Below, in pieces: positions 7,741 to 64,000 of a DNA stretch of 64,000 bases; within the stretch, counting starts at the first letter, position 1; each line of letters opens with the position of its first letter. Below the pieces are notes generated by a model. That model saw nothing but the letters and a program-made list of their open reading frames with translations, was not told where the DNA came from and did not search any database. Location: NCBI GenBank assembly GCA_018350325.1, contig JAEVLN010000007.1, positions 1,889,109 through 1,953,108 on the forward strand, read 5' to 3'. The translations under genes were made by a program, and so were the position numbers. This DNA comes from Globodera rostochiensis (Eukaryota; Nematoda; Chromadorea; Rhabditida; Heteroderidae).

Positions 7741-8608
7741 CATCTTCAGCCGAGCAGTCCATCCCCCCCCCGCCGAGCAGTCCATCCTCCACCCCCCACC
7801 CCCCGCAATGTTTGTCTTTAATTTCAGGAATTTATATAAAGCCGTCGGACCTCGCCCCTCTTCATGCCCGTCGTCGATTGGATTGGGGGGGGGGGGGCTC
7901 GGCCCCGACGACCAACAGCAGAAAATTGAATTGTGCTTGGTTGGTCCACTCCAAATCATATTTTGTGCATTGTTTGATTTTGATTTCCGCCGATGACGAA
8001 GTCGGCGGCTGGGGCTATAAGCTCTTTGGGGGCTGATTGTGGTGACAAAAAGAGCCTTCTGCTGACCAAAAGCACTGCTGCTCTGGGCTCAGCCATCGCA
8101 AAAGCTTTTGTTTGACCTTTCGGCTGAGCCAAATTCCTGAATCATTGGAGCAGGAAATGATTTAGACGATTGTCATGAGTAAGTAAGATTTATGGGATTT
8201 AAAAAAGTGGTGAGAAAAATTCACTAAAACTCTAAAATATAACCAGATTTTCAATGATATTTGTGAATCATTGGGTTGCGTTAAATCTTATAAATAAATA
8301 TTATAATAAAAGTTCCTTTTAATAATGAAGAAATTAATTTTTTAAATATTTAAAAAGGGACACATTGCAATTAACAAAACTGGACTCAAAGACCTAAAAA
8401 AATCGGTTATTATAGGTCTAAACCGTCTTCATACCGTATACAAATAGCAAATATTTTTTTGTATTAAAATTCTTTTTATGATTATCAGTCATTAAAATAT
8501 TATGTGAAAGTTTCAATTTTTATTCGACATCAATAGGCGCGCTCAGGGGCCGGAGTTTCGCATTTCCACGTCATCAACTAGAGAAAAAAAACATAATTTT
8601 TAGTGTAA

Positions 8609-10431
8609 TTAAAGTTTTTTGTCGAAATACTGTTTTTTCATCTTTAACATGCCTGCACGTGGTTCAATTTTTTTCGTGTCAGCTGTTGTGCCATTTAAAA
8701 CACTCTCAGCTACGACAGAATGCACGACAGTTGGAGCTGTGCCGTTCTGGTTGGCACTCAGAGAAGTGCCATTGAGTTGTGGGCCAGCAGCAAGGATGGT
8801 TTTCTGTTTGGAATTCAGAGAAGTGCCATTAGGTTCTGGGCCAGCAGCAGGGATGGCATTCTGTTTGGCATTCAGAGAAGTGCCATTGAGTTGTGGACCA
8901 GCAGCAGGGATGACATTCTGGTTGCCATGTTGAACAGTGCCATTGAGTTCTGGGCCAGCAGCAGGGATGGCATTCTGTTTGGAATTCAGAGAAGTGCCAT
9001 TGAGTTGTGGGCCAGCAGCAGGGATGGCATTCTGTTTGGCATTCAGAGAAGTGCCATTGAGTTGTGGGCCAGCAGCAGGGATGACATTCTGGTTGCCATT
9101 TTGAACAGTGCCATTGAGTTCTGGGCCAGCAGCAGGGATGGCATTCTGTTTGGCATTCAGAGAAGTGCCATTGAGTTGTGGACCAGCAGCAGGGATGACA
9201 TTCTGGTTGCCATGTTGAACAGTGCCATTGAGTTCTGGGCCAGCAGCAGGGATGGCATTCTGTTTGGAATTCAGAGAAGTGCCATTGAGTTGTGGGCCAG
9301 CAGCAGGGATGGCATTCTGTTTGGCATTCAGAGAAGTTCCATTGAGTTGTGGACCAGCAGCAGGGATGACATTCTGGTTGCCATGTTGAACAGTGCCATT
9401 GAGTTCTGGGCCAGCAGCAGGGATGGCATTCTGTTTGGCATTCAGAGAAGTGCCATTGAGTTGTGGACCAGCAGCAGGGATGACATTCTGGTTGCCATGT
9501 TGAACAGTGCCATTGAGTTCTGGGCCAGCAGCAGGGATGGCATTCTGTTTGGCATTCAGAGAAGTGCCATTGAGTTGTGGGCCAGCAGCAAGGATGACAT
9601 TCTGTTTGGCATTCAGAGAAGTGCCATTGAGTTGTGGGCCAGCAGCAGAGATGAAATTCTGTTTGGCATTCAGAGAAGTGCCATTGAGTTCTGGGCCAGG
9701 AGCAGAAGTAGGCTTGGCTTTACTATTCTTTCGTTTGCGACTCGACTTGACTTTAGGAGTTTTGCCATTGGGCCCCTTAATTGAACATTGGAATTTATAA
9801 CTGTGCAAAAGGATCACATTTGGTTTGCCATTCAGTGAAGTGACAATGAGTTCTGGGCCAGCAGCAGGGATGAAATTCCGGTTGGCATTTTGAACAGTGC
9901 CATTGAGTTCTGGGCCAGGAGCAGGAATGACATTCTGGTACGCATTTAGAACATCGCCATTGAATTCTGGGCCAGGAGCAGGGATGGCATTCTGATTGGC
10001 ATTTAAAACAGTGCCATTGAGTTCTGGGCCAACAGAGATGAAAATCGGATCTGCGCAACATTTTTTATGTAATTAATTGCTTGTTTTTGCTTACCGTGAG
10101 TTTCTTGGGGTTGTGCGTTCTGCAGCGTGCCATTGCCACCACCGTTTAATGGGTTTCTCTGGTTACGGTTGACGCCTTTGTTTATTTGGGTGTTGTAAAA
10201 GCCTTTGAATTTTGAATTTATAAATATTTATTATTTATATTAAGTAATACCTTGCGAGTTTGAGAGCGGGAATACAGGCGCTTTAAAAAATTATTAATAA
10301 CATTTAACTTTTAAATAAAATATGTTCCAATCATTTAATCGTTTTTGAAATTTTTTTTTCATACCTTCGTCATGAAGACTTTCAGCACCAATATAATAGC
10401 AAGTTAGAAAAAACAGTGAGAATATGTTCAT
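8609..10431 (-). CDS. Secreted 19-residue-repeat protein rich in NGT sequons
   Basis: Function unknown. There are four exons: 10365-10431, 10251-10280, 10095-10202 and 8609-10050, all with canonical GT-AG introns and continuous phase (549 codons including stop). Exon 1 encodes a signal peptide (MNIFSLFFLTCYYIGA, then ESLHDEG). After about 70 non-repetitive residues the protein is a run of about 20 copies of a unit like AAGPQLNGTSLNAKQNAIP, alternating with a variant in which SLNAKQ is VQHGNQ. Most copies carry the N-glycosylation sequon NGT. One interruption near 9720-9830 encodes a basic, Lys/Arg/Ser-rich linker (KSSRKRKNSK). The C-terminus is short and basic. The product is therefore likely a heavily N-glycosylated secreted or surface protein. 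The DNA repeats are nearly identical, which implies recent unequal exchange or gene conversion. An AG acceptor lies 6 bases before the ATG, compatible with trans-splicing. Open frames on the opposite strand here are shadows of the repeat. Confidence 0.85.
8740..9700. repeat. 57-bp coding tandem repeat array
   Basis: About 17 near-identical 57-bp units sit in direct tandem, with two main unit types that alternate: one contains 'gttgccatgttgaacag' and the other 'tttggcattcagagaag'. A second, more diverged block of four units lies at 9825-10040 beyond the basic linker. Unit length is a multiple of three, so copy-number change keeps the reading frame. Confidence 0.85.
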
Positions 10432-16494: not shown

Positions 16495-19400
16495 ATGGAT
16501 TTCCTGAAAATTGAGGAACGTCGAGTTTCGCGGTGGTATTTTGGAGGCATTGCCGGTTCTATGGCTGCATGTTCGTTAAAATGTTTAAAGCAATTAAACA
16601 TGTTTTCGAATTTTCAGCTTATTAAATCATTTTGTTAAAAATTCCGGTTATTTATTAATGAAATTGAAAATTTTTCAGGTTTTACACACCCGCTTGATCT
16701 CCTCAAGGTCCATCTTCAGACCCAACAGCAAGGAAAAGTGTCGCTGCCTGCAATGTCTGCAAAAATTTACAAAAGCGATGGATTTACGGGGTACAAAAAT
16801 TTCTTGAGGAATTTCCTTTTGGGTTTTTTAGCTTTTACAATGGTCTTTCGGCTTCAATTTTGCGGCAGCTCACCTACACCACGACACGCTTTGCTGTTTA
16901 TGAAACTGTAATTTTTCTAATTTATTTTTTTTCTAATTTAATTTAATTTTTTTTTCTTATCATTTAGGTGAAAAAACAGTGGTCTGGCGACCTGAATTTT
17001 GGGCAAAAAATGCTGCTAGCTGGAGTTGCAGGTGGAGTTTTTGTAAAAATCGATAAAATTTTTTGGGTACATTTTCTAACGCAGGTGCCGTTGGAGGGGT
17101 GGCTGGCTCGCCCGCCGATTTGGTCAATGTTCGCATGCAAAATGACATCAAATTGATGCCGGCTGAGCGGCGGAATTACAAAAATGCCGTCGATGGGCTA
17201 CTACGGATGGCCAGGGTCCTTTTTTTTGTTGGGAGATTGGAGCCGAACAAAAAAGGCTTCGGTCCGTCAAAGAGAGCACATTATAAAAAAACCCCAGCAC
17301 TTTTTATTTAAGGCTATTTATCAAGGGCGTAGCCAGAGCTTTTTTTCGGGAGGGGCTAATTTGAAAAAAAGTCAATATTTAGGGGTGCATTTTTAGGGTT
17401 TATTGCGCATTTTAGTTAAGGAATTTTTTCTAAAAAAAGTTGAATTTTTAGCGTAGTGGCATGGGCATAGCCAGGGGGGGGCGTAGGGCCCAAGCCCCCC
17501 CCCCCACTGAAAAAATTTTTTGAGGAAAAAAAACCAGCGGGGGAACCCTTTTGTTTTTGCAAAATTAATCATTTTTGGACTAATTTTGTTATCTTCAAAA
17601 AAAAATTGCAGTTTTTTAAAAATTTCTTGCCGATTCAAATTTTTTCTCGGCGGCGCCTATCGGCACCGCCGACCCCCTCCTCCAGATCTCAAGCAGAAAT
17701 CTCAAAAAAATCGTATTTTTGAAAATTCCTTAACAAAAAAGCAGTAAAAACGGAAAATGCACCCCCTAAAAACAAACATTTTCTGGAAAAATTGCTGCAC
17801 AAAAATGCAATAAAAAAGGAAAAATGCACCCCTAAGAATCGACTATTCCGGATCGAGCCTCCCCCCAAAAAAAATCCTGGCTACGCCCTTGCGGGGTGGG
17901 CCTAATCATTAGTGCTGCACGAGACCCGAAATTTACCGAGACTTGAGAGTCGAGACCGAGAAATGACCCCGAGACTCGAGACCGAGATCGAGACCCAAAA
18001 AAACCGAGAAATTTCCCGAGTCGAGACTCGAGACCGAGACTTTTTGAAAATTTTTTAATTTTTTGGTTCAAAAATTTGGAAAAGACAAATTTTTTTTGCA
18101 ATTTTTATTAAAGGGTTTTGCAGAGGACTAGCGGTACCGACAGGCGCCGCGGCGAACAAGAATAATTTTAGGAGTGTATTTTTGAGTTATTGGATTTTTT
18201 TAATTAAGAAAATTGGTCAGGAATACAAGTTTTTTGCAAATTCTGCTCTACTTTTAGGGGAGGGAGGGAGGGAGTCAGCGGTGCCGATAGGCGCCGTCGA
18301 AAAAATTTTGAATTTTTGACTCAATTTGTTAAGAGATTTGCAACTAAAAATTTTAAAAATGCGGTAATTTATGTAAGCTTTTTTAGGTGTAGGAAGGAGG
18401 GGTGTGCCTATAGGCGCCGCCGAGGAAGATGAAAGTCTTTTTGAATTCTGTTAAAAAAATTGCCAAAAAAAATTACATTTCATAAGGTTTCCTGATAGTG
18501 AGTGATGTTTTGTAAGAACTAATTATTAAATTAAAAAATAACTAATTTAATTTTGGGAATTGAACCGCCGTACAGAGTTTAACCACTGAGTCATAAGACC
18601 ATCCAATCAGGGCTGTGTCGAAAGTAAAAAAAAAAAGTCGAAATCGAAAATCGAAACTGAAAAGTTCGAAAATCGAAAGGAAAAAAACGTCGAAAATCGA
18701 AATTCGAAAATCGAAACAAAATCGAAAATTTTTTTTATGTGATTAGAAAAATTTTTTTAAAAATAATTTATTTAATAAATATTTTTTGAAATATTCACTT
18801 GTTCATTTTTAAAATTTTGAAGGATGCATTTTTTGTTTCAGAAGCCTTCATATGCCCATTTTAAGCTTTTATGAGGGTGGGGTGTCAGAAAATTTTGAAT
18901 TTTTGACTCAATTTGTTAAGAAAAATGATCCAAAAACCACATGAATTGGTCGACTTTATGCTTTCAGTGGCGGCCCGTCGGTGCCGATAGGCGCCGCTGG
19001 GAGAAATTTGGGGGTTTTGTTAAGCAATTTCACCAAAATTTTCGCAAAATTGAGCATTTTTCTTCGTAATTTCGGGGAACACATTTTTACATAAGAGTGG
19101 AGGATGTACGGCGGTCTTTTTTTGTAAGTATTTTAATTTAAAAATAATTGAAAATCATTAAAAATGTTCCGTTAATGGGGGATAAAATGTGAAGGCCGAA
19201 GAAAGGTTAAAAAAGTGATCGCACTGTAGCGGGTTCGAACCCAAAAGACAAAATCGTAAAGAAAAACCACTGAGCTATAAATTTACCTGTTGGACGCATG
19301 TAAAAAAGATTGAAATTTTGTCAAAAAGTTGGCAAGACCACTGCCCACCCTTGCCAAAAATTTAAAAACCTGGACCTCCGACTTTCGAAATTATTATCGA

Positions 19401-29444: not shown

Positions 29445-32400
29445 ATGGCTTATTTTATAAAAGATATTTTGGTTTTATTAACACTCATTGGATATTTTGT
29501 GCCCGTAAAAGCCCCACTTCCAGGATCGCAATCAAGCTTGGGCGTAGATCAAGAGACAGCGCCAGGATTCAACTTTGTTAATTTAATTGAAGCAAAATTC
29601 AATAATTAATTGCTTTAGCAATCGCAACCAGTGTTCCAACCAAACTTGGCTCCGCCACCATCATCAAAACTTTCGCAACAGTTTAGCCAACCTCAGAGTC
29701 CAAGCCAAGTGGACGAGGAACAGTCGTTTCTACCACCTGGCCTTGAAGAATTTCCAGAAGCGCCCGGCCCCGCTTTTGAGCCTTCGAATGCGCCGGCACC
29801 TTTTCAAAACACAATCAAGGTCAATGGAATTGGACCAGAACCACCACCACGTTCAGTCAACACTACGACCCAAACAATCCCTGCAACACCAACAACACCA
29901 CCAAACAGATTGGTTGTGTCAACAACCCAAACAATTCCAACAAATCTAACAAAAAAATTGTTAATTTCAACAAACTCAACAGTTAGACCTTCTGCAACAA
30001 TTTCAACAACACCACCAAACAAATTGTTTGTGTCAACAACTCAAACAATCCCTGCAACAATTTCAACAACTCCAACAAACAAATTGTTAATTTTAACAAA
30101 CTCAACAATACCAACAGTTCCAACAACACCACCAAACAGATTGTTTGTGTCAACAACCCAAACAATCCCTTTAACAATTTCAACACCTCCAACAAATAAA
30201 TTGTTGTTAATTTCAACAAACTCAACAATACAAACAACTTCTGCAACAATTACTCCAACAACACTACCTTCAACAATTTCAACAACTCCAACAAACAAAT
30301 TGTTAATTTCAACAAACTCAACAATACAAACAACTTCTGCAACAATTACTCCAACAACACCATCAAACAGATTATTTGTGTCAACAAATGCAACAGCACA
30401 AACAACTCCAGCAACAATTCCAACGACTACTCTAACAACACCACACAGATTGTTTTTGTCAACAACCCAAACAATCCCTTCAACAACTCCAACAAACAAA
30501 TTGTTAATTTCAACAAACTCAACCATACAAACACTTTCTACAACAATTCCAACAACATCACCACTAAACATATTTCTTATGACAACAAATGCAACAGCAC
30601 AAACAACTCCAGCAACAATTCCAACGACTACTCTAACAACACCACCAAACAGATTGTTTTTGTCAACAACCCAAACAATCCCTCCAACAATTCCAACAAC
30701 TCCAACAAACAAATTGTTAATTTCAACAAACTCAACAATACAAACAACTTCTGCAACAATTACTCCAACAACACCATCAAACAGATTGTTTGTGTCAACA
30801 AATGCAACAGCACAAACAACTCCAGCAACAATTCCAACTACTACTCTAACAACACCACCAAACAGATTGTTTTTGTCAACAACCCAAACAATCCCTTCAA
30901 CAATTTCAACAACTCCAACAAACAGATTGTTAATTTCAACAAATTCAACCATACAAACACTTTCTGCAACAATTCCAACAACATCACCACTAAACATATT
31001 TCTTATGACAACAAATGCAACAGCACAAACAACTCCAGCAACAATTCCAACTACTACTCTAACAACACCACCAAACAGATTGTTTTTGTCAACAACCCAA
31101 ACAATCCCTCCAACAATTCCAACAACTCCAACAAACAAATTGTTAATTTCAACAAACTCAACAATACAAACAACTTCTGCAACAATTACTCCAACAACAC
31201 CATCAAACAGATTATTTGTGTCAACAACCCAAACAATCCCTTCAACAATTTCAACAACTCCAACAAACAAATTGTTAATTTCAACAAACTCAACAATACA
31301 AACAACTTCTGCAACAATTACTCCAACAACACCATCAAACAGATTGTTTGTGCCAACAACCCAAACAATCCCTTCAACAATTCCAACAACTCCAACAAAC
31401 AAATTGTCAACAAACTCAACACTACAAACAACTTCTGCAACAATTACTCCAACAACACCATCAAACAGATTATTTGTGTCAACAACCCAAACAATCCCTT
31501 CAACAATTTCAACAACTCCAACAAACAAATTGTTAATTTCAACAAACTCAACAATACAAACAACTTCTGCAACAATTACTCCAACAACACCATCAAACAG
31601 ATTGTTTGTGCCAACAACCCAAACAATCCCTTCAACAATTCCAACAACTTCAACAAACAAATTGTCAACAAACTCAACACTACAAACAACTTCTGCAACA
31701 ATTACTCCAACAACACCATCAAACAGATTGTTTGGGTCAACAACCCAAACAAACATATCAATACCAACTACTCCACTAAACATATTGCTTATGACAACAA
31801 ATGCCACAGGTGTAGCAGGTATTCAAATACCGTATTTTTCCTATTAGTAACCCATGGGTTACTATTGTTCAAACCCCCCTCGAGGGGGGGTTACAATTAG
31901 AGAGTGGGTAAAGAATAAAATCTACAAGTTTCTTCTCATATTCAATTGGTGGCTTTTAACAAACAGTCGTAGGAATACGGACGCGTAAGTTATGCCGAAG
32001 CATAAACTTGTTAAGCCAACCACAGCTCGCCTTAAAACTCATATTAACTTTTTCCAAACAACAAAAGCTCACTTTGAAAATTGTTTCCTCCTCATCTGCT
32101 TGGTTTGCGATCTGTAGAGCATGGATCTGAATTGTTCGTCGAGAAACTCGTTGATTACACGCTCGTTGTGTTCTGATCCATACAATCATTTGATCATCAA
32201 ACTCTGTCGCGGAGATGTCGTCCAGCACCGTCAAGTCTTAAACGCTTTCCAGATTTTGATTCCCTAAAGTAGTAAATTATTTTTTAACAAATGACAATCA
32301 ATCTACCGCAAAGAGAGCAGTTTTTGCTTTCGCTTTTGCCATTCTCTGATGTTCTGGCGATCTATTTTAAACTTCCGACTTGCTTCATTAATTGAATGGG

Positions 32401-35400: not shown

Positions 35401-38400
35401 ACCATAACTTTTTAAAGGTTTAAATGATCGTTTAGTCCCTGCTAGATAATAGCTTCTAAACATAAAGAGCTTTCGATTGGTACCCAATTTGTTTCGTTTG
35501 GATAGTTCCAAGAAAAGTTATGGCACTTCAAATGTCCCTGGGGCCCAAACGGCGGGGCCCAAACGACCCACACTCCGCCAGTTCCCCCCCCCGCCGTCCC
35601 CCCCCCCCCCCGACGCCGGTTCCCCCTCGCCAATTCCCCCCCCCCCCCGAATCGTTTCCCCCCCGAGTCGTCCCCCCTCCAGCATTGTTTCCCCGAGAAC
35701 CATTAGCAATGCTCAAGCATTTATCCGACAAACTGAAAATGGTTACGCATTAATTCCGTACAAACATAAGGCATTCTCCTAATTTATTTTCCCCTTTCCA
35801 ATTTGTTTTGTTTTCTGTATATCCGACAACCCATTCGTCCATTTTCCAGCCAGAACCCCAATATTTATCGAATGGTGAGCATTCTAAGCTCGGCGTCTTT
35901 AGTTTCAAGAAGCATTCGTTTAAGTGCATCATTTTGAGAAAATTTTGCGACCAAACCACTCTGCAAAATCTGTTGTTTCTTTTGTTATTTGAATTTACGG
36001 GGGGAATTAAACCTCAAAACATTTTTCGCGCCATTCCGTCAAATTGAAACCATTTATGTTTTCGTCGCGGCCAAGTTTTTTTATAATGTTTGGGTCATTC
36101 TTAAAAAAACAAGACGTGAAAATCGGTTACACTTTGTTCATTTACTTGTGCCATAATTTTTGCGACCAATTGATTGTCTCCGAAGTGCTGCCGTAAAGGC
36201 GCTCGTAAGTGTTTCGCGAGTCGAGTCTTGTTTACGCTTGCTTTTATACAAAACCAAAGGAAAGAGGGGATTAACTGTTAAGGAAAAGAAGACGGGATTG
36301 ATTAAATGTTATACACACGTGCAGCAGCTGGCGATAGACGATGAGAGTGTGGGAGAAGCAAGACAATGAGGGGAGGGGGGGGGGGGGGACATGATGCGGA
36401 GGGGAAACGATTGGGGGGGAAACGGCGGGGGTGAAACGGCGGTGAGGGGAAACGATTCGGGGGGGGGGGGGGGGGAAACGGCGGGGGGGGGGGGGAACTG
36501 GCGGGGGGGAAACGGGGGGGGGGGGGGAAACGAGCTGTTCCGCAAAAAAAGGTTAATAATAAACAATTACAAAGAGATGCATGTGTTGGCGTATTAATTA
36601 AGTTAACCTTTTGACCGGTCCATTTTGACCGAATTTTTACTTTTTTGAAAATATCTTTTTTATTGAACTTTGAGCATATAACCAATCTATTTTTAGAAGG
36701 AATGGAAGAAAAAGCTGAATGAGCTTGATAATGCGCGACGTCGTCAGGAGGAAGAAGCGCGTGCAAGCGCACAAGCGCAAGCACATGCAGCTGCATTGCA
36801 ACAAAAAGAGGCTCAATTGGAAGCGGCAAAGCGACGAATTGCGGAAGAGGAAAGGTGTTAATTCCCTCCCTTAATTCAAATTATTAGACATGCCATCTGC
36901 TGGGTGCAAGTTTTTTCAATAATTATTTTGTTTAACTGAAAGTAAATGGTTAATATTAACGACAGTTATGATCAATAATAAGTGGCATATATTATAAATA
37001 CCTCATGAGCTGATTATGACCAATAAAGTTTTTTGTTTTATTTTAAAAAGTCCAACAATCAACTTTTATGGATAAATAATTTGGAAAGCATCATGCAAAA
37101 TTAATTTTATTCATTTTTTTAGAAGAGCAGCATTGGGACAACAAAACAAAGCACACCTCGATGCATGGAAGCACAAATTGGTCGAGATGGAAGCGGAAAA
37201 ACAACGCATTGAAGCAACGGCTAGACAAGCAGCACTGCAACGCCATCAGCAGGCAAAACAGGAGGAATGGGAACGTAAAATGGCCGAACTGGAGGAGGAG
37301 AAGCTAAACCAAGAAGAATTGGGAAAAGGTCATTTAGAAACACAGTATTGGCTGAATCCACCGCTCATCACTATTTTATTTTTATTTAAAACCATTAATA
37401 TATTAATAGTGGAAAAGCAGCGTCAAGAGGAGGCTCAACAAGCAGAATTACAACGCCAACAGGAAGAGGACTGGAAGCGTGAGATGGCCGAGCTTGAGGA
37501 GGCGAAACGGCAAAGAGAGGAAGCAGCTAAACGTACGTAATTTTTCAAAATAAATAGAGAATGGAATTCATTTTAGATTTTGAATTTTTTTTTTTTGAAA
37601 AATAGAAAAATGGGAGCGTCAGCAAAAAACACAAGACGCATGGAAACGTAAACTTGCCGAACTGGAGGAAGAGAAGCGTCGCAGAGAGGAAGCAGACAAA
37701 GGTAAGTACCAAATTTACCAAAGAAAAATCTAAAACATAATTCTTATTTTAATACTACAGTACCAAAGCACTCTAATTATCTATAAATTATATTTTGTTA
37801 AAAGCAAATAGTTTTAATCGCTGTTTATATTATATCTCATTAACTGCTAAAATAAACTAAAATGGTTAATTGTTTCAAAATCCCAAAAGGTGTATAAAAA
37901 ATGGGTAAAATTGTAGTTTATGGGCATGTCACCGAATTTGACTTTTTATAGCTCAATCGACACGAATATGCAATTAATCGGGGGCAAGCACTATGAAGAA
38001 ACTTATGAGCCCGGGACTGAAGTGTCTTTTGACTGGGGACTCAGTTATCCACTGATTAAAAAAATGGGAAAATCACTCATATAGCTTTCAAAATTACGAA
38101 TTAGTTGATAGAAAATAAAATTGGGAATTTAAATCCGTTTTTGAACCGGTTTAAAAGCTTGAAATTAAGGGAAAAAAATTGTAAAATGGACACTTCAGTA
38201 CCAAAAGTAAAAATGAAACCCTTTTCTCCGCAGACAACTGTAAACAGAAGACAACTGTGCACAGGACCCCGACGGGAGGGTGGCAAATTAAGGGGTAGTC
38301 AAAAAGGTGGGTGTGTGAAAAGCTATTTTCATCAACGGCTAAGTTAAGCTGTTAATATTAGGCACGCGCTTCGCGCGTGCCTAATATTATAGTTTTTCCC

Positions 38401-43235: not shown

Positions 43236-44103
43236 GGTGTGTAGACATTTGCGGCTCAGACATTTGCGGCCCAGAAATTTGCGGCCCAGACATTTGCGGC
43301 TTAAGACAAAATGTACATTTGCGACCCGACATTTGCGGCCAGACATTTGCGGCCCAGACATTTGCGACCCGGCTTTTGCGGTCAGACACTTGCGGCCTAA
43401 GCACAATAGACATTTGCGGCCAGACATTTGCGGCCCAGTCATTTGAGGCCTAAGACAAAATAGGCATTTGCGGCCAGCCATTTCGCCAAAATTCAAAAAC
43501 ATTAATTAGGCCCATAATTGTTTTCACTTTATGCCTCAGTAAAGCTCTTCATTTTCGATTAGTATCATTGTCGTATCGCAAAATCAAGCTTTAACAAAGT
43601 TTCTTGCGTTTTTCACTGAGACCTCTTGGATCAAGCTTGTAAACCTGATTCTGTTTTTCTAGTATTCCTCTTCCAATTTTAGTGCGGTGATAAATCTTTT
43701 TAAATTATTTGAAATACTTAAATGCCATCCCTCATTGCATTTTTAGTCCTATATAGGTTTAAAATAGTTGAGTCATGCATATTCCAATCATAGTGTGAAG
43801 CAAGAGTCAAGGAATAATGTGTTTAATTAATGTTTTTGAATTTTGGCGAAATGGCTGGCCGCAAATGCCTATTTTGTCTTAGGCCTCAAATGACTGGGCC
43901 GCAAATGTCTGGCCGCAAATGTCTGTTGTGTCTTAGGCCGCAAGTGTCTGACCGCAAAAGTCGGGTCGCAAATGTCTGGGCCGCAAATGTCTGGGCCGCA
44001 AATGTCGGGTCGCAAATGTCTATTTTGTCTTAAGCCGCAAATGTCATGTCTGGGCCGCAAATGTCTGGGCCGCAAATGTCTGAGCCGCAAATGTCGGCCA
44101 ACC
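43236..44103. mobile_element. Foldback element with 'catttgcggcc' tandem arms
   Basis: The left arm (43236-43500) is about 14 copies of 'agacatttgcggccc' variants. The right arm (43826-44103) is the inverse, 'gggccgcaaatgtct'. Arms meet a 325-base AT-rich spacer with no gene; the inner edges 'attcaaaaacattaatta' and 'taattaatgtttttgaat' pair exactly. Flanks GGTTAAAC and GTTAAAAC may be an 8-bp duplication with one slip. Open frames in the arms come from the repeat. Confidence 0.78.
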
Positions 44104-45612: not shown

Positions 45613-46248
45613 GGCTCCCGGAAAATGCGTCAGTGGAAAATGCGTCAGTAGAAAATGCGTCAGTGGAAAATGCGTCAGTGATTATTAAAAGTCATGCAAA
45701 ACATTTTTCTGGAGGTTTTTGGGGTCTAAGAATCCAATTTGAGCTCTGTTACAGCCAATTCCGAACCCCGGACCAGAATTCGAACATTTAGTCGAAAATT
45801 CAAATTTTTCCAAAAATCAAGTTTGGCGGCTAACCCGTCCGAAGCCAACCACGATTGCCAATTCTGTCTAGTACTGAAGCTAAGCCTAAGCCAACCTCGC
45901 TTACGATTTGTTAGGCTGAGGCCTCTAAGCATAGCTTAAGCCTATGCTTAGGCTTAGCCTAAGACGTTAAGATTAAGTTTTGGCTTGGGTGGGATTCAAG
46001 ACACTTTACAACGAAAGTAATAATCGAATTTATACTTTTGAATGATTTGGAGACCAAAATGGATTTTTGTAAAATTGTTCGAATTTGGTTCGAGGTTCGA
46101 AATCGGCAGAAATGGATGTTAGAATTATAGTCTAAGCGCCTAAATCCGATAAAAAAACTTTTTTCTCGACTTTTGATAATCACTGACGCATTTTCCACTG
46201 ACGCATTTTCTACTGACGCATTTTCCACTGACGCATTTTCCGGTCACC
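45613..46248. mobile_element. Foldback element with 'aaaatgcgtcagtgg' arms
   Basis: The left arm has four copies of 'gtcagtggaaaatgc' starting GGCTCCCGGAAAATGCGTC; the right arm is the inverse ending GACGCATTTTCCGGTCACC. The exact target duplication is GATATAAC (45605-45612 and 46249-46256). The centre (about 45880-45965) is dense in TTAGGC-like words (cttaggcttagcctaag). No coding content. Confidence 0.85.
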
Positions 46249-52905: not shown

Positions 52906-55900
52906 ATGTTGGGACAATTTTTTATTTTCTCATTTTGCTTGTTCACGTCGATCTTTGGCCAGCCTCCTACACCACAGTCATTCCAATACGAACCTCAGAC
53001 GCAGAATGGACAATCGCAGAAAACTGTTATTATGCGATTGGAACCGGTAAAGGATTTAATCAAATTTATCTAGACAAAACCTTTGTTATTAACAAGAATA
53101 AAATACCTATGCGTCATTTTCTTCAAAAATTTAAAAAATAAGTACTAAAATCCTGAAATTTATTTGCAATTAAATTAATAAACCAATCAATGAAAATTAT
53201 TTTTAAAAATATTTGATGCCACTTTAGCTTCCAACGAAACCGTCATTTATGCGCCAGGCAGATCCGCCTCGTGCCGTACCGCAGGCCCCAACTCGACACA
53301 TGCCATCACCAGCGAAACAGTCTCCGCCAATCAGTGCTTCGCCAGCACGATCATCGGCGGCATCAGTCGCAGCACAAGTAAAGAAATTTTTTTATTAATT
53401 TTTTATAATTCAATTTACTTTTAAAAATTTGCACCATTTCTCATCAACTCATTTGCAGAATTTGTTCCCCACTTATTTAAAAAAAAATAGAATATTCCGA
53501 GTGTGTCCACACCAAGTCCAATCGCAGCCCTACAGCCAGTTTTGCCTTTAAACCCAACTCAACAGAAATTCAGTGCGCGTGAAGAAGCAACGCCACCTCC
53601 AGCACCACCAAGTAAAAATTTATATTTAAAAAAATAAAATAATTTTTTACAATTAAGTGAACATACCGACAGATGTGCAAAATCAACTGATTAAATTCCT
53701 TGGTCTTGATTCATTCGGTAAATGAGTTTTAATAAATTACACATTAATACATTTAAAATTTAATAGGAATTCCTGGTCTTACTGGAAGCCATCCTGAAGG
53801 ATTTGCCGGTGCCGTAAAAGAACTTCGTTCGGCAGGGATTCCTGTTCAGGGAATGCCATTGGAACATATAGGAGGACAAACTGTCCATGCGCCTCAGGCA
53901 ATTTATATATAATTTTTTTAATAAATTGATTTCTCATTTATAAAAATAAGAAAACAGATGCTTTCAATGTTTAGTAATTTTTTTATACATTCATTTATTG
54001 TTCAGAATGAAGCGCTTGTCCAAGCAAACCCCAAATTTGGCAACGAGTTGAACACTTTTATCGAAAGTGCCAAGGCACCATTCAATCCATCCGGCAGCAG
54101 TGCTCCGTAAATTTAATTAGATAATTTAAAAGGTTATTGTAAGATTAAATAACATATTTATTAAGCTTACCGGATGCAAAACCGGGCGAAAATGGGCTAA
54201 TTGGATTGTTGAGCACTTCAGTGCGAAAAATTGTGAAGGACAGTAAGCAAGAAAATATTACATATTACTAAAATTTATTCCGAATTATTTATTCTATTGC
54301 TATATATTTTGGGAATAAAAAATAATTTAAGCTGGCATGGCGGATGCACTGTCCAACTCATTGCCGAATTTGCTTGGTACTAATAGTGGCACAAATGGAG
54401 CGACGGATACCAAATCAATTGCTTCGGCACTTGCAAACGCAGCGGAATCTACTTCTTCCACTGCTGGCGGTTCAACAGCACCAGCCGCATCTAGTGGCGG
54501 AACCGGTAAGATTTTAAAATTAAATGAATAGTGCCAGATGTATGTTTTTAGGAATTCGTCGTCAACAATCCCCGGCAGAGCGTGCCATTGCTGGGTTTGC
54601 ATCGGCTTTGGGTGGTGGTGGCAATGCCAACGGACCTGCGCATGCAGGACTTCCGAGAATTCCTGGTCAAATATTTTGCCTGTTTTAGGACTAAAACAAT
54701 AAATTCTAATTTTAATCAAAAATTACCTTGTAATTTTTTATTCTTAAGGTATTCCAATTTTACCCGGAGGCATCCCAAGAAATTCCCAGGGCCAGATTGA
54801 TGTGGTCCAGCTTATCGGTAAAATTTGCTCAAAAATGAACATTAAAACAAACATTAGGGTCCATTACACGACGAGTGTCAAATGGAACAACATTGGCTGA
54901 TGTGATCCCACCGGATCACTTGCAAACATTGGCAGACAATGTCACGGATGCTTTACTCCCGTCAACGCCTGAAGACTTTGAGCTCAGCAAATTTATGGGA
55001 CGATGGTTTGAGGGTATGAAAATATTCTCATATTTTATGCTTTTAAATGCTTTTCTTAGTTCGGTATTTTGCTTAAAATACCTTTTTTCTACCACTTTTA
55101 ATTGAAAGCAAAATAATTTTTAAACAATGCAGGTATAAACAGCCCAAGGGCAACAGAACAGCGTTGCATTGTTCATCACTGTAATAAAAATTTGTATATA
55201 TTATATAAATTTGGCTAATACAAATAAAATATTTTCTATTTTACACATTATTATTATTTTTTAGATGGAGGCCTGACTAAAAACGAAAAAACAGCCACAT
55301 TTACTGCACTGAAAATTTATCGAGATGGCAGCGAATTTGGTGCTGTCAAATATTCCATTGGCTACGCTTTCCGTGCCGGAAACAAGGATGCCATGCTTCA
55401 GCTGCATAGTTCGGAGAACTCGGATGCCCAACCATGTGAGAAAACTTGGAAAAAATTAGTTTACTTCAATTCGTCAATTATTTTTAAATTTTATTTTTAG
55501 TTTGGGTCTACAAATTGGGGCCTGAAGGCACTGACCCGTTCGGCAACAAACAATATGAATATGCCATAATCAGGTCGGTGCCTCCCTCGGTGCTCAATCT
55601 TTTGCGCCGCTACATTTGCGCCGGCACATTTGCGCCGATACATTTGCGCCGGCACATTTGCGCCGATACATTTGCGCCGATACATTTGCGCCGGCACATT
55701 TGCGCCAGTGACATTTGCGCCGGCAAAGTCTTAACTATTTTTATCTGCTTTTTGTCAGGGTTAATTTTTTCGCACTTGGGGGTTCGCCTAAGCACTCTGC
55801 GGTTTTTTATTTTTGAGTTTTTCTTTTATTTTTAATTTTTTGCAAAAAACTGAAGAAATATCAAAACATTTGAATTCCCATACAAGTTATATACCAATCG

Positions 55901-56613
55901 ACTCTGCGAACCCTAAGTCTAGGGTGCTTAGGCCTAAGCCTAACAAACCCCTGAGCTCAGGGTGGCTTAGGCCTAAGCCTAGCGAACCCATAAGTGCGTA
56001 AACATTAACCCTGACAAAAAGTAGACAAAAAAATTGTTAAGACTTTGCCGGCGCAAATGTGCCGGCGCAAATGTATCGGCGCAAATGTGCCGGCGCAAAT
56101 GTATCGGCGCAAATGTGCCGGCGCAAATGTAGCGGCGCAAAAGATTCCGGCGCAAATGTGTCGGCGCAAAAGATGCATCACACCTCCTCCCTCCACTGTT
56201 TTAATTTAAAATAGGGATGCATGCTTCCTTTTAGTAACTGGGTGAAATATCCCGTGACTGTGTTAGTCAGAGATCCGGACTCATTCAAGGTAAATTATGC
56301 TTTATTATAATATGTACCTTAAATATAATTTTTTTATTTTAATAAAAAGGACAATTTACTAAAGATTTAATTATAAACAATATTAGGCCAAGCACGAGGT
56401 GGAGGTATTGCGTTGGTTGGAGGACCAAGGCTTCATCAACGGCTTTATCCGAGCTTTTAACATGCTTCAACCGGCTAGGTAAGCTCATTTGTCTAAAAAT
56501 AAAATTTGTTTAATATTAACTACTTTAATAATGATCACACAACAAATAAATTTAGCTATGGTTCTTGTCAATACGCGGACAATACCTTCGAGTTATTTGG
56601 TAGAAAAAGATGA
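52906..56613 (+). CDS. Secreted protein with disordered N-terminal half and lipocalin-like domain
   Basis: Likely binds a small lipophilic ligand outside the cell. Seventeen exons in continuous phase: 52906-53046, 53228-53377, 53491-53611, 53658-53717, 53767-53897, 54006-54106, 54166-54242, 54332-54505, 54552-54665, 54749-54817, 54858-55013, 55133-55180, 55265-55435, 55501-55573, 56235-56289, 56387-56478 and 56556-56613 (596 residues). A signal peptide (MLGQFFIFSFCLFTSIFG) is followed by about 400 residues rich in Pro, Ser, Ala and Gly, with repeated GIPG/GIPxLPG phrases at exon joins. From about residue 420: FELSKFMGRWFEGINSP, the lipocalin G-x-W motif; then EQRCIVHHYGGLTK, a mid barrel strand set, YPVTVLVRDPDSF, a C-terminal helix (VEVLRWLEDQGFI) and a late Cys (GSCQYADNTFELFG) that could pair with the first. 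The intron after 53897 has a GC donor. The 55574-56234 intron holds a foldback element. AATAAA is at 56683-56688. The lipocalin call is by motif and layout. Confidence 0.85.
55589..56185. mobile_element. Foldback element with 'acatttgcgccgg' arms inside lipocalin intron
   Basis: The left arm (55589-55760) has about ten 'acatttgcgccggc' units and then 'ctttttgtcagggttaa'; the right arm is its inverse (55995-56185). Ends read GGTGCTCAATCTTTTGCG and, inverted, AGGTGTGATGCATCTTTTGC. The 8-bp duplication is CCTCCCTC (55581-55588 and 56186-56193), beginning only eight bases after the splice donor. The centre has 'ttaggcctaagcc' words. Same architecture as 43236-44103 and 45613-46248. Confidence 0.85.
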
Positions 56614-56785
56614 AAAAATATGTTCAATCAATTTGAGACATTTATCGTTCGATTGATTTTAACTAATATTTCTCAAAATATTAATAAATTTCTCTTTTTC
56701 GTTTTCATTTTGTGTCAGCACAAAATCGCTAAAGGTCAAAACCCTAATAATTTTACACACTTGGGGAACCAATAATCGGGTACCT
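56614..56785. other. 3' flank of the lipocalin gene
   Basis: AT-rich spacer with the gene's poly(A) signal (56683-56688), ending at the first satellite unit. Confidence 0.6.
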
Positions 56786-59700
56786 TTTGGCCAATCTCTT
56801 TTACCCGAAACTAGCTGAAAATTAACATTTAGAAGGGAGGTTTTAGGTTCCGCCAAATGGTTCTTTCACCCAAGACTTTTTTTGCAAACAATAAATTATT
56901 CCATTTTGGCCAATCTCTTTTACCCGAAACTAGCTGAAAATAGTAGTTTAGGAATTAACATTTAGAAGGGAGGTTTTAGGTTCCGCCAAATGGTTCTTTC
57001 ACCCAAGACTTTTTTTGCAAACAATAAATTATTCCATTTTGGCCAATCTCTTTTACCCGAAACTAGCTGAAAATAGTAGTTTAGGAATTAAGATTTAGAA
57101 GGGAGGTTTTAGGTTCCGCCAAATGTTCTTTCACCCAAGACTTTTTTTGCAAACAATAAATTATTCCATTTTGGCCAATCTCTTTTACCCGAAACTAGCT
57201 GAAAATAGTAGTTTAGGAATTAACATTTAGAAGGGAGGTTTTAGGTTCCGCCAAATGGTTCTTTCACCCAAGACTTTTTTTGCAAACAATAAATTATTCC
57301 ATTTTGGCCAATCTCTTTTACCCGAAACTAGCTGAAAATAGTAGTTTAGGAATTAACATTTAGAAGGGAGGTTTTAGGTTCCGCCAAATGGTTCTTTCAC
57401 CCAAGACTTTTTTTGCAAACAATAAATTATTCCATTTTGGCCAATCTCTTTTACCCGAAACTAGCTGAAAATAGTAGTTTAGGAATTAACATTTAGAAGG
57501 GAGGTTTTAGGGCCCGCCAAATGGTTCTTTCACCCAAGACTTTTTTTGCAAACAATAAATTATTCCATTTTGGCCAATCTCTTTTACCCGAAACTAGCTG
57601 AAAATAGTAGTTTAGGAATTAACATTTAGAAGGGAGGTTTTAGGTTCCGCCAAATGGTTCTTTCACCCAAGACTTTTTTTGCAAACAATAAATTATTCCA
57701 TTTTGGCCAATCTCTTTTACCCGAAACTAGCTGAAAATAGTAGTTTAGGAATTAAGATTTAGAAGGGAGGTTTTAGGTTCCGCCAAATGGTTCTTTCACC
57801 CAAGACTTTTTTAGCAAACAATAAAATATTCCATTTTGGCCAATCTCTTTTACCCGAAACTAGCTGAAAATAGTAGTTTAGGAATTAAGATTTAGAAGGG
57901 AGGTTTTAGGTTCCGCCAAATGGTTCTTTCACCCAAGACTTTTTTTGCAAACAATAAATTATTCCATTTTGGCCAATCTCTTTTACCCGAAACTAGCTGA
58001 AAATAGTAGTTTAGGAATTAACATTTAGAAGGGAGGTTTTAGGTTCCGCCAAATGGTTCTTTCACCCAAGACTTTTTTTGCAAACAATAAATTATTCCAT
58101 TTTGGCCAATCTCTTTTACCCGAAACTAGCTGAAAATAGTAGTTTAGGAATTAACATTTAGAAGGGAGGTTTTAGGTTCCGCCAAATGGTTCTTTCACCC
58201 AAGACTTTTTTTGCAAACAATAAATTATTCCATTTTGGCCAATCTCTTTTACCCGAAACTAGCTGAAAATAGTAGTTTAGGAATTAACATTTAGAAGGGA
58301 GGTTTTAGGGCCCGCCAAATGGTTCTTTCACCCAAGACTTTTTTTGCAAACAATAAATTATTCCATTTTGGCCAATCTCTTTTACCCGAAACTAGCTGAA
58401 AATAGTAGTTTAGGAATTAACATTTAGAAGGGAGGTTTTAGGTTCCGCCAAATCGTTCTTTCACCCAAGACTTTTTTTGCAAACAATAAATTATTCCATT
58501 TTGGCCAATCTCTTTTACCCGAAACTAGCTGAAAATAGTAGTTTAGGAATTAACATTTAGAAGGGAGGTTTTAGGGCCCGCCAAATGGTTCTTTCACCCA
58601 AGACTTTTTTTGCAAACAATAAATTATTCCATTTTGGCCAATCTCTTTTACCCGAAACTAGCTGAAAATAGTAGTTTAGGAATTAAGATTTAGAAGGGAG
58701 GTTTTAGGTTCCGCCAAATGGTTCTTTCACCCAAGACTTTTTTTGCAAACAATAAATTATTCCCTTTTTGCCAATCTCTTTTACCCGAAACTAGCTGAAA
58801 ATAGTAGTTTAGGAATTAACATTTAGAAGGGAGGTTTTAGGTTCCGCCAAATGGTTCTTTCACCCAAGACTTTTTTTGCAAACATTAAATTATTCCATTT
58901 TGGCCAATCTCTTTTACCCGAAACTAGCTGAAAATAGTAGTTTAGGAATTAACATTTAGAAGGGAGGTTTTAGGTTCCGCCAAATGTTTCTTTCACCCAA
59001 GACTTTTTTTGCAAACAATAAATTATTCCATTTTGGCCAATCTCTTTTACCCGAAACTAGCTGAAAATAGTAGTTTAGGAATTAAGATTTAGAAGGGAGG
59101 TTTTAGGTTCCGCCAAATGGTTCTTTCACCCAAGACTTTTTTAGCAAACAATAAATTATTCCATTTTGGCCAATCTCTTTTACCCGAAACTAGCTGAAAA
59201 TAGTAGTTTAGGAATTAAGATTTAGAAGGGAGGTTTTAGGTTCCGCCAAATGGTTCTTTCACCCAAGACTTTTTTTGCAAACATTAAATTATTCCATTTT
59301 GGCCAATCTCTTTTACCCGAAACTAGCTGAAAATAGTAGTTTAGGAATTAACATTTAGAAGGGAGGTTTTAGGGCCCGCCAAATGGTTCTTTCACCCAAG
59401 ACTTTTTTTGCAAACAATAAATTATTCCATTTTGGCCAATCTCTTTTACCCGAAACTAGCTGAAAATAGTAGTTTAGGAATTAACATTTAGAAGGGAGGT
59501 TTTAGGTTCCGCCAAATGGTTCTTTCACCCAAGACTTTTTTTGCAAACAATAAATTATTCCATTTTGGCCAATCTCTTTTACCCGAAACTAGCTGAAAAT
59601 AGTAGTTTAGGAATTAACATTTAGAAGGGAGGTTTTAGGTTCCGCCAAATGGTTCTTTCACCCAAGACTTTTTTTGCAAACAATAAATTATTCCATTTTG

Positions 59701-60405
59701 GCCAATCTCTTTTACCCGAAACTAGCTGAAAATAGTAGTTTAGGAATTAAGATTTAGAAGGGAGGTTTTAGGTTCCGCCAAATGGTTCTTTCACCCAAGA
59801 CTTTTTTTGCAAACAATAAATTATTCCATTTTGGCCAATCTCTTTTACCCGAAACTAGCTGAAAATAGTAGTTTAGGAATTAACATTTAGAAGGGAGGTT
59901 TTAGGTTCCGCCAAATGGTTCTTTCACCCAAGACTTTTTTTGCAAACAATAAATTATTCCATTTTGGCCAATCTCTTTTACCCGAAACTAGCTGAAAATA
60001 GTAGTTTAGGAATTAACATTTAGAAGGGAGGTTTTAGGTTCCGCCAAATGGTTCTTTCACCCAAGACTTTTTTTGCAAACAATAAATTATTCCATTTTGG
60101 CCAATCTCTTTTACCCGAAACTAGCTGAAAATAGTAGTTTAGGAATTAAGATTTAGAAGGGAGGTTTTAGGTTCCGCCAAATGGTTCTTTCACCCCAAGG
60201 ACTTTTTTTGCAAACAATAAATTATTCCTTTTGGCCAATCTCTTTTACCCGAAACTAGCTGAAAATAGTAGTTAGCATTAAGATTTAAAGGGAGGTTTTA
60301 GGTTCCGCCAAATGTTCTTTCACCCAAGGCTTTTTTGCAAACAATATTATTCATTTTGGCCAATCTCTTTTACCCGAACTAGCTGAACATTATTGGTTAG
60401 GTGGC
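56786..60405 (+). repeat. 133-bp satellite array, forward orientation
   Basis: About 27 tandem copies of a 133-bp unit that starts 'ttttggccaatctcttttac' and contains 'gaaactagctgaaaatagta', 'ttagaagggaggttttaggt' and 'tctttcacccaagacttttt'. The first copy is shorter (it lacks the tagtttagg segment). Common variants: aacattt or aagattt, ggttccgcc or gggcccgcc. The last two or three copies before 60405 carry many small indels. No reading frame runs through. Confidence 0.95.
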
Positions 60406-60411
60406 TAAAGC

Positions 60412-60498
60412 TTAGGCTTAGGCTTAGGCTTAGGCTTAGGCTTACTAAGGCTTAGGCTTAGGCTAGGCTTAGGCTTAGGCTTAGGCTTAGGCTTAGGC
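60412..60498 (+). repeat. Telomere-type TTAGGC repeat between inverted arrays
   Basis: About 14 copies of TTAGGC on the plus strand, with two faults (cttactaagg near 60443 and a lost base near 60463). TTAGGC is the nematode telomere repeat. All copies point the same way; no GCCTAA half is present. Confidence 0.92.
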
Positions 60499-63400
60499 GA
60501 AAGAACCATTTGGGAACCTAAAATCCCTTCTAAATGTTAATTCCTAAACTACTATTTTCAGCTAGTTTCGGGTAAAAGAGATGGCCAAAATGGAATAATT
60601 TATTGTTTGCAAAAAAAGTCTTGGGTGAAAGAACCATTTGGGGAACCTAAAACCTCCCTTCTAAATCTTAATGCCTAAACTACTATTTTCAGCTAGTTTC
60701 GGTAAAAGAGATTGGCCAAAATGAATAATTTATTGTTTTGCAAAAAAAGTCTTGGGTGAAGAACCATTTGGCGGAACCTAAAACCTCCCTTCTAAATCTT
60801 AATGCCTAAACTACTATTTCAGCTAGTTTCGGGTAAAAGAGATTGGCCAAATGGAATAAATTTATTGTTTGCAAAAAAGTCTTGGGTGAAAGAACCATTT
60901 GGCGGAACCTAAAACCTCCTTCTAAATCTTAATTCCAAACTACTATTTTCACTAGTTTCGGGTAAAAGAGATTGGCCAAAATGGAATAATTTATTGTTTG
61001 CAAAAAAAGTCTTGGGTGAAAGAACCATTTGGCGGAACCTAAAAACCTCCCTTCTAATGCTTAATTCCTAACTACTATTTTCAGCTAGTTTCGGGTAAAA
61101 GAGATTGGCCAAAATGGAATAATTTATTGTTTGCAAAAAAAGTCTTGGGTGAAAGAACCATTTGGCGGAACCTAAAACCTCCCTTCTAAATCTTAATTCC
61201 TAAACTACTATTTTCAGCTAGTTTCGGGTAAAAGAGATTGGCCAAAATGGAATAATTTATTGTTTGCAAAAAAAGTCTTGGGTGAAAGAACCATTTGGCG
61301 GAACCTAAAACCTCCCTTCTAAATCTTAATTCCTAAACTACTATTTTCAGCTAGTTTCGGGTAAAAGAGATTGGCCAAAATGGAATAATTTATTGTTTGC
61401 AAAAAAAGTCTTGGGTGAAAGAACCATTTGGCGGAACCTAAAACCTCCCTTCTAAATCTTAATTCCTAAACTACTATTTTCAGCTAGTTTCGGGTAAAAG
61501 AGATTGGCCAAAATGGAATAATTTATTGTTTGCAAAAAAAGTCTTGGGTGAAAGAACCATTTGGCGGAACCTAAAACCTCCCTTCTAAATCTTAATTCCT
61601 AAACTACTATTTTCAGCTAGTTTCGGGTAAAAGAGATTGGCCAAAATGGAATAATTTATTGTTTGCAAAAAAAGTCTTGGGTGAAAGAACCATTTGGCGG
61701 AACCTAAAACCTCCCTTCTAAATCTTAATTCCTAAACTACTATTTTCAGCTAGTTTCGGGTAAAAGAGATTGGCCAAAATGGAATAATTTATTGTTTGCA
61801 AAAAAAGTCTTGGGTGAAAGAACCATTTGGCGGAACCTAAAACCTCCCTTCTAAATCTTAATTCCTAAACTACTGTTTTCAGCTAGTTTCGGGTAAAAGA
61901 GATTGGCCAAAATGGAATAATTTATTGTTTGCAAAAAAAGTCTTGGGTGAAAGAACCATTTGGCGGAACCTAAAACCTCCCTTCTAAATCTTAATTCCTA
62001 AACTACTGTTTTCAGCTAGTTTCGGGTAAAAGAGATTGGCCAAAATGGAATAATTTATTGTTTGCAAAAAAAGTCTTGGGTGAAAGAACCATTTTGCGGA
62101 ACCTAAAACCTCCCTTCTAAATCTTAATTCCTAAACTACTGTTTTCAGCTAGTTTCGGGTAAAAGAGATTGGCCAAAATGGAATAATTTATTGTTTGCAA
62201 AAAAAGTCTTGGGTGAAAGAACCATTTTGCGGAACCTAAAACCTCCCTTCTAAATCTTAATTCCTAAACTACTGTTTTCAGCTAGTTTCGGGTAAAAGAG
62301 ATTGGCCAAAATGGAATAATTTATTGTTTGCAAAAAAAGTCTTGGGTGAAAGAACCATTTGGCGGAACCTAAAACCTCCCTTCTAAATCTTAATTCCTAA
62401 ACTACTATTTTCAGCTAGTTTCGGGTAAAAGAGATTGGCCAAAATGGAATAATTTATTGTTTGCAAAAAAAGTCTTGGGTGAAAGAACCATTTGGCGGAA
62501 CCTAAAACCTCCCTTCTAAATCTTAATTCCTAAACTACTATTTTCAGCTAGTTTCGGGTAAAAGAGATTGGCCAAAATGGAATAATTTATTGTTTGCAAA
62601 AAAAGTCTTGGGTGAAAGAACCATTTGGCGGAACCTAAAACCTCCCTTCTAAATCTTAATTCCTAAACTACTATTTTCAGCTAGTTTCGGGTAAAAGAGA
62701 TTGGCCAAAATGGAATAATTTATTGTTTGCAAAAAAAGTCTTGGGTGAAAGAACCATTTGGCGGAACCTAAAACCTCCCTTCTAAATCTTAATTCCTAAA
62801 CTACTATTTTCAGCTAGTTTCGGGTAAAAGAGATTGGCCAAAATGGAATAATTTATTGTTTGCCAAAAAAAGTCCTTGGGTGAAGAACCATTTGGCGGAA
62901 CCTAAAACCTCCCTTCTAAATCTTAATTCCTAAACTACTATTTTCAGCTAGTTTCGGGTAAAAGAGATTGGCCAAAATGGAATAATTTATTGTTTGCAAA
63001 AAAAGTCTTGGGTGAAAGAACCATTTGGGCGGAACTAAAACCTCCCTTCTAAATCTTAATTCCTAAACTACTTATTTTCAGCTAGTTTCGGGTAAAGAGA
63101 TTGGCCAAAATGGAATAATTTATTGTTTGCAAAAAAAGTCTTGGGTGAAGAACCATTTGGCGGAACCTAAAACCTCCCCTTCTAAATCTTAATTCCTAAA
63201 CTACTATTTTCAGTAGTTTCGGGTAAAAGAGATTGGCCAAAATGGAATAATTTATTGTTTGCAAAAAAAGTCTTGGGTGAAAGAACCATTTGGCGGAACC
63301 TAAAACCTCCCTTCTAAATCTTAATTCTAAATACGTTTTCAGCTAGTTTCGGGTAAAAGAGATTGGCCAAAATGGAATAATTTATTGTTTGCAAAAAAAG

Positions 63401-64000
63401 TCTTGGGTGAAAGAACCATTTGGCGGAACCTAAAACCTCCCTTCTAAATCTTAATTCCTAAACTACTATTTTCAGCTAGTTTCGGGTAAAAGAGATTGGC
63501 CAAAATGGAATAATTTATTGTTTGCAAAAAAAGTCTTGGGTGAAAGAACCATTTGGCGGAACCTAAAACCTCCCTTCTAAATCTTAATTCCTAAACTACT
63601 ATTTTCAGCTAGTTTCGGGTAAAAGAGATTGGCCAAAATGGAATAATTTATTGTTTGCAAAAAAAGTCTTGGGTGAAAGAACCATTTGGCGGAACCTAAA
63701 ACCTCCCTTCTAAATCTTAATTCCTAAACTACTATTTTCAGCTAGTTTCGGGTAAAAGAGATTGGCCAAAATGGAATAATTTATTGTTTGCAAAAAAAGT
63801 CTTGGGTGAAAGAACCATTTGGCGGAACCTAAAACCTCCCTTCTAAATCTTAATTCCTAAACTACTATTTTCAGCTAGTTTCGGGTAAAAGAGATTGGCC
63901 AAAATGGAATAATTTATTGTTTGCAAAAAAAGTCTTGGGTGAAAGAACCATTTGGCGGAACCTAAAACCTCCCTTCTAAATGTTAATTCCTAAACTACTA
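60499..64000 (-). repeat. 133-bp satellite array, inverted orientation
   Basis: About 26 copies of the same unit as in 56786-60405 but reverse-complemented, running to the window edge. The first five copies and those near 62860-63330 have many indels. Variant use differs from the left array: most copies carry the aagattt form, and a 'ctactgttttc' variant (61870-62280) is confined to this side. Confidence 0.95.

Follow-up and report, generated by a model that had tools for sequence, protein, structure and literature searches.

The window, by which we mean the whole stretch of 64,000 nucleotides analyzed here, corresponds to C67:1889109-1953108 in a Globodera rostochiensis assembly of 92.6 Mb and 80 contigs, and it ends in two arrays of a 133-bp satellite placed in opposite orientation on the two sides of a short TTAGGC tract (a junction spanning 56785-68376 in window coordinates). 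The left array of about 27 units, identified by TRF, BLAST, and unit alignment, occupies 56785-60387 on the forward strand; TRF reported a period of 133 with 26.9 copies and 98% matches at 56820-60387, and the start at 56785 was set by unit alignment and BLAST. It is followed by 24 bp of non-satellite, partly telomere-like filler (60388-60411, forward strand, by sequence inspection) and then by the tract itself (60412-60498, forward strand, by TRF and motif search), which comprises 87 bp with 12 exact and several imperfect TTAGGC units, has its G-rich strand pointing right, and appeared in TRF as a period of 6 (GCTTAG) with 15.3 copies and 90% matches at 60410-60498. The inverted right array, also defined by TRF, BLAST, and unit alignment, fills the window from 60499 to 64000 on the reverse strand (period of 133, 26.5 copies, and 97% matches at 60492-64000 by TRF) and continues to window coordinate 68376 (L010:4376, in the scaffold sequence beyond the window), with about 59 units in total, some of which lack about 24 bp through a deletion. 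The sequence-only reading had described this arrangement with 27 forward and 26 reverse copies and with the G-rich strand directed away from the left array; the anatomy, the orientation, and the forward count were borne out, whereas the reverse count of 26 is that up to the window edge and not that of the whole array.

The tract is located at C67:1949520-1949606 in a scaffold of 4,351,606 bp, at distances of 1.95 Mb and 2.40 Mb from its two ends, and no N gap is present in the window or in the next 20 kb beyond it. As assembled, it is thus a telomere motif lying away from a chromosome end, and it is short and imperfect, as is typical of an interstitial telomeric sequence (ITS); it does not have the terminal position of a chromosome end, although a misassembly could mask such an end. 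No GCCTAA run follows the tract, the sole GCCTAAGCCTAA found by motif search in the window being at 55932, and the earlier claim that the site holds no head-to-head telomere pair (a TTAGGC run followed by a GCCTAA run) was thereby confirmed. TTAGGC does run outward from one side, as in a fusion in which one telomere has been lost. The satellite unit is broken at about position 30 in the left array and at about position 91 in the right array. A 22-bp pattern over 60385-60406, which covers most of the filler, matched a single place in the genome with up to three mismatches, namely this one, and neither the left junction (three or fewer mismatches) nor the exact right junction was found a second time in the genome. 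With one mismatch allowed, two sites on C3 also matched the right junction, namely the edge of the array near 516 kb and position 2014210.

Other features of the window are three elements of about 0.6-0.85 kb (43242-44095, 45620-46241, and 55601-56170), the ends of which are inverted tandem repeats of 14-15 bp, as in fold-back or MITE-type elements; an inverted pair of C-run-rich and G-run-rich tandem repeats facing each other about 0.7 kb apart (35581-36527); and long repetitive open frames (8609-10072 and 29619-31847), which include 57-bp repeat units open on both strands and a 742-aa Thr/Asn-rich frame. No Rfam family matched the window at the gathering threshold.

Composition of the two arrays and their flanks

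The arrays were compared unit by unit. G50C is present in 18 of the 27 left units and T72G/T73C in four, whereas neither occurs in the first 25 full units to the right of the tract, four of which carry T32C. Near the tract on the right, G50C occurs only in the cut-off partial unit; farther to the right, some units carry it and several are only 106-109 bp long, owing to the deletion noted above. At 60235-60359, the final complete unit of the left array shows the variants that mark a second subfamily (-G42, A44C, and A99G), and two right units close to the tract carry A44C, as if both arrays ended there naturally. The right array differs from the left one in G50C, T72G/T73C, and break phase and is neither a mirror nor a second copy of it, which argues against a fold-back artefact.

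The flanks also differ. A 3.7-kb query from the left flank gave one full match, which is itself, and two short matches of 82-83%; a haplotype copy of this flank was therefore rejected. On the right, where the array gives way to non-satellite sequence, one raw frame exceeded the Pfam cut-off for SPRY and another fell just below it, and a SPRY-domain frame adjoins the array (L010:4400-8400). Among the best candidates scored, parts of the right flank recur at 2.1-2.8 Mb of C67 and on C16, C9, C7, and C27. The C27 paralogue diverges exactly at the array edge, with no satellite in the 8 kb read; it marks where the array begins and is silent on the join. A comparison of the window with the flanks of the other fetched arrays gave no more than short matches (about 150-430 bp) at some loci, and the array near the end of C67 had no flank match to the window.

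Distribution of the satellite and of TTAGGC tracts

A 401-bp query from the left array matched many places on C3, C8, C16, C23, C29, and C67 and weak pieces on C19 and C49, which is a lower bound since only the best candidates were scored and the window's own array was not listed among them. In the fetched stretches, arrays were found on C67 (three), C3 (four), C16, C23, C8, and C29; those on C3, C8, C16, C23, and C29 lie away from scaffold ends, and a further C67 array lies 33 kb from the scaffold end. The satellite is thus dispersed. The subfamily with G42, A44, and A99 makes up both window arrays, the array at C67:4314629-4318164, and an array near C3:523 kb, and it amounts to at least about 16 kb over these four arrays, or roughly 0.02% of the genome. 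The subfamily with -G42, A44C, and A99G is represented by the arrays at C3:304 kb and C3:516 kb and by two pattern-caught units near C3:538 kb, and the one unit caught by the pattern on C16 was too diverged to be placed. A large palindrome with arms of at least 4.6 kb and 99.3% identity, centered in inverted 133-bp units, was observed in both of two near-identical stretches (C23:5165582-5174999 and C8:1118000-1127999). Among the matches listed for Globodera literature on TTAGGC and on satellite DNA, no title describes this 133-bp satellite. Nothing at the tract site hints at a role other than that common to satellites in general.

Internal TTAGGC tracts are common in this assembly. The genome motif search gave at least 23 internal places with four or more perfect units, a lower bound obtained by clustering 30 starts (cluster ends) taken from 75 tract starts with a pattern that misses some tracts, such as that at C1:6541664. 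Among the shorter tracts are those of 510 bp on C21, 137 bp on C12, and 119 and 115 bp on C19, and kilobase-long tracts, also internal, are present on C5, C15, and C34. The C5 tract (1029149-1031401, 2.25 kb) follows a 10-N gap at 1029133, and the C15 tract (500896-504627, 3.7 kb, GCCTAA) has one 70-bp interruption and a sparser middle. In the stretch read on C34 (906500-913500), a TTAGGC tract at 908125-909975 (1.85 kb) directly faces a GCCTAA tract at 909979-911968 (1.99 kb) in ungapped sequence, and a head-to-head telomere pair is therefore present at C34:908125-911968. The only tract found near a scaffold start, among the few scaffold ends read, is one of 54 bp at C19:549-602. In the stretches read near this start (C19:1-1000, 8000-9500, and 17500-18600), GCCTAA tracts of 54, 119, and 115 bp were seen, of which at least the first two come after similar flanking sequence; their orientation would suit a left end, and the tracts are short. 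Many TTAGGC-type repeats interrupted by other sequence were also seen near C1:1798 kb, C4:1167 kb, and C7:1123 kb, and the units read on C1 and C7 are minisatellites with built-in TTAGGC pairs, internal to their scaffolds.

The joins at the long tracts were compared as well. C5:1060000-1060999 and C34:878524-879521 are 100% identical (rounded), as are C5:1300000-1300799 and C34:638523-639322, which are collinear with the former pair. Beyond the tract, this segment, shared by the C5 end and the left arm of C34, continues into the 10-N gap and other sequence in one copy and into the head-to-head telomere in the other, and one end with two different partners means that at least one of the joins is false or not fixed. 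The outer end of the C15 tract abuts, without a gap (C15:497500-506500), an array of a 117-bp satellite, of which the stretch read covers about 3.4 kb (29 copies, 96% matches); here too satellite lies beyond a tract, which makes C15 one rough parallel to the window.

The sequence-only reading had taken the left array for a subtelomere. This view was not supported, given the internal place of the tract 1.95 Mb into a 4.35-Mb scaffold, the dispersal of the satellite, and the tract length of only 87 bp, in contrast to 1.85-3.7 kb at C5, C15, and C34. Furthermore, the 133-bp satellite was absent from all 20 other TTAGGC loci read, three of which have kilobase-long tracts, with 0.8-7 kb read at each; these 20 come from the 22 other clustered places, with C5:1879012 and C34:57303 and the tracts missed by the start pattern lying outside this count. 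A role as a general subtelomeric repeat was accordingly rejected. Of the origins proposed earlier for the right array, assembly error and a captured telomere are both still live options. Chance alone would produce about 0.01 coincidences of a tract with an array, given 23 tract places and a summed array length of 38 kb in the 92.6-Mb genome; both inputs are lower bounds, since the start pattern misses some tracts and only the best candidates of the satellite search were scored. A chance origin of the two arrays is excluded.

Small indels at the join

Scoring of 86 units (27 left and 59 right; a few are shortened, and one row is a double) yielded 43 small indels, which are very unevenly distributed. 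Twenty-four of them, of 1-2 bases each, fall in the six full units scored around the tract (60101-61108), 13 in four units of a second patch inside the right array (62838-63366), and six in the other 76 units. In 100,000 trials in which units were shuffled, the junction sum was never reached, although the choice of the six units was made post hoc. The rough units show no excess of substitutions, with seven in these ten units and 58 in the 76 others. We read the patch as residual long-read error in poorly polished sequence, since substitutions, too, would be expected to accumulate at an array edge that had truly aged. The context in same-base runs was rejected as a mark of sequencing error, since the share of patch indels in such runs (29 of 37) is too close to that of unit positions in them (93 of 133). 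The near-copies on C23 and C8 likewise differ by indels nearly without substitutions: their alignment of 9,450 bp has 94 gap openings but just 11 mismatches. The pile-up of indels at the tract means that the join rests on poorly polished sequence. However, the C3 array edge at about 522.5-523.0 kb is also rough and stands against non-satellite sequence, so that roughness is no proof of a false join.

Origin of the junction

The arrangement is present as sequence in the assembly and is ordinary in kind, and its contiguity is uncertain. As the leading explanation, to which we give slightly less than an even chance, we propose that the site is a short ITS, and not a chromosome end, left by break-and-rejoin inside satellite DNA. 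A break would have occurred within the satellite, and one broken or eroded end would have carried a short TTAGGC stretch or received one from telomerase; this end would then have been ligated to another broken satellite end of opposite orientation, giving the order of left array, filler, TTAGGC, and inverted array. The sequence itself shows the anatomy, the interior scaffold place, a dispersed satellite that is absent near the other tracts read, two arrays of different composition, and the frequent occurrence of internal TTAGGC tracts; that the join exists in the animal, and the history outlined here, we infer. The length of 87 bp fits the other short internal tracts and not those of 1.85-3.7 kb, and the filler at the left junction together with the mid-unit break on the right looks like end joining. 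Both partners belong to the same rare subfamily, which makes a random ligation chimera unlikely, and plain read overlap presumably could not have joined a forward array to an inverted one. Against this explanation, the join sits in the rough patch, neither junction has a supporting second copy, and at least one telomere join elsewhere in the assembly is dubious.

Tracts of this kind are known from other animals. A review (PMC9071541) counts 1,229 ITS tracts in C. elegans; as a point against the explanation given here, it also describes Caenorhabditis tracts as unlikely to come from head-to-head telomere fusions, their abundance being unexplained. Mammalian ITSs are described as having been inserted during the repair of double-strand breaks (PMC2246262, PMC7215372). 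The site resembles nematode and mammalian ITSs in being a short, imperfect telomere-motif tract at an internal place with filler and abrupt ends; it differs in lying between two inverted arrays of one satellite and not in ordinary arm DNA, and it may not be contiguous in the animal. TALT elements of C. elegans also have telomere-like sequence adjoining internal DNA, but TALT1, as characterized in PMC4595603, is a unique block between two ITSs of the same orientation, whereas a single tract lies here between two satellite arrays.

It is quite possible, if somewhat less probable than an ITS, that the site is an assembly seam, at which arrays from different places were bridged within one scaffold by a single long read, or by a few, of poor quality or chimeric origin; in that case a true telomere, or another TTAGGC tract, may lie at the end of the left array and have been truncated. 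The concentration of indels at the tract and in the second patch, the two partners of the identical C5/C34 segment, the 117-bp array on the outer side of the C15 tract, and the single occurrence of both junctions are all in line with a seam, and a pipeline outlined in PMC11228951 for such a genome, which may not be that of this assembly, uses long-read scaffolding and gap filling. On the other hand, tracts of 1.85-3.7 kb were retained elsewhere in the assembly, as against only 87 bp here, and two arrays of one satellite subfamily would seldom be brought together by a chance join. By eye, the C34 and C15 joins show no indel pile-up right at the seam, which makes rough sequence an unreliable mark of false joins; the C3 edge is rough as well, and the run context gives sequencing error little support.

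An end-to-end fusion relic appears unlikely. Two satellite-bearing ends would have fused, the left one keeping 87 bp of telomere and the right one having already lost its own, and the product could be inherited because nematode chromosomes are holocentric. The outward direction of TTAGGC from the left array and the same orientation of the units of both arrays towards the join would be expected of such a fusion, but like orientation is a one-in-two chance, the satellite was seen at none of the other 20 tract loci read and occurs in the interior of several scaffolds, and nothing indicates separate chromosomal origins for the two halves of C67. End-to-end fusions are reported to be stable in holocentric nematodes, often with copied subtelomeric DNA at the breakpoints, as in the C. 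elegans telomerase mutants covered in PMC9071541. The site shares with those fusions a one-sided telomere remnant, inverted repeats at the join, and a presumably holocentric background, whereas its satellite does not stand beside the other tracts read.

We consider it improbable that telomeres of this nematode can gain satellite arrays beyond TTAGGC, either through capture or because an uncapped satellite end fuses to them, with C67 (133-bp satellite) and C15 (117-bp satellite beyond 3.7 kb) as the cases. The clade-specific telomeric repeats of Meloidogyne described in PMC10844300 offer a likeness in the plant-parasitic setting, which is likely shared, and in longer repeats near telomere-like DNA, but the Meloidogyne assemblies are reported there to be without TTAGGC repeats, whereas TTAGGC tracts reach kilobases here. 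Least credible is a fold-back artefact in which one end was read through and back: the inverted arrangement around a telomere tract would suit it, but no GCCTAA run follows the tract, the tract-adjacent right units do not share the variants seen in the left units closest to the tract, and a mirror of the left end is refuted for the whole arrays by the variants, the break phase, the right array being twice as long, and flanks that are single-copy on the left and of SPRY-domain sequence on the right.

If the site is a seam, it would be a warning that the assembly joins sequence through telomere and satellite tracts, a behavior that would misdirect studies of chromosome ends and of the region with SPRY-domain sequence to the right. 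If satellites are gained beyond TTAGGC, the site would represent an intermediate towards chromosome ends with longer repeats, as in Meloidogyne. If the junction is real, as the break-and-rejoin explanation holds, it would be the scar of a chromosome breakage or fusion in a probably holocentric nematode, and it would bear on the high frequency of internal telomere tracts.
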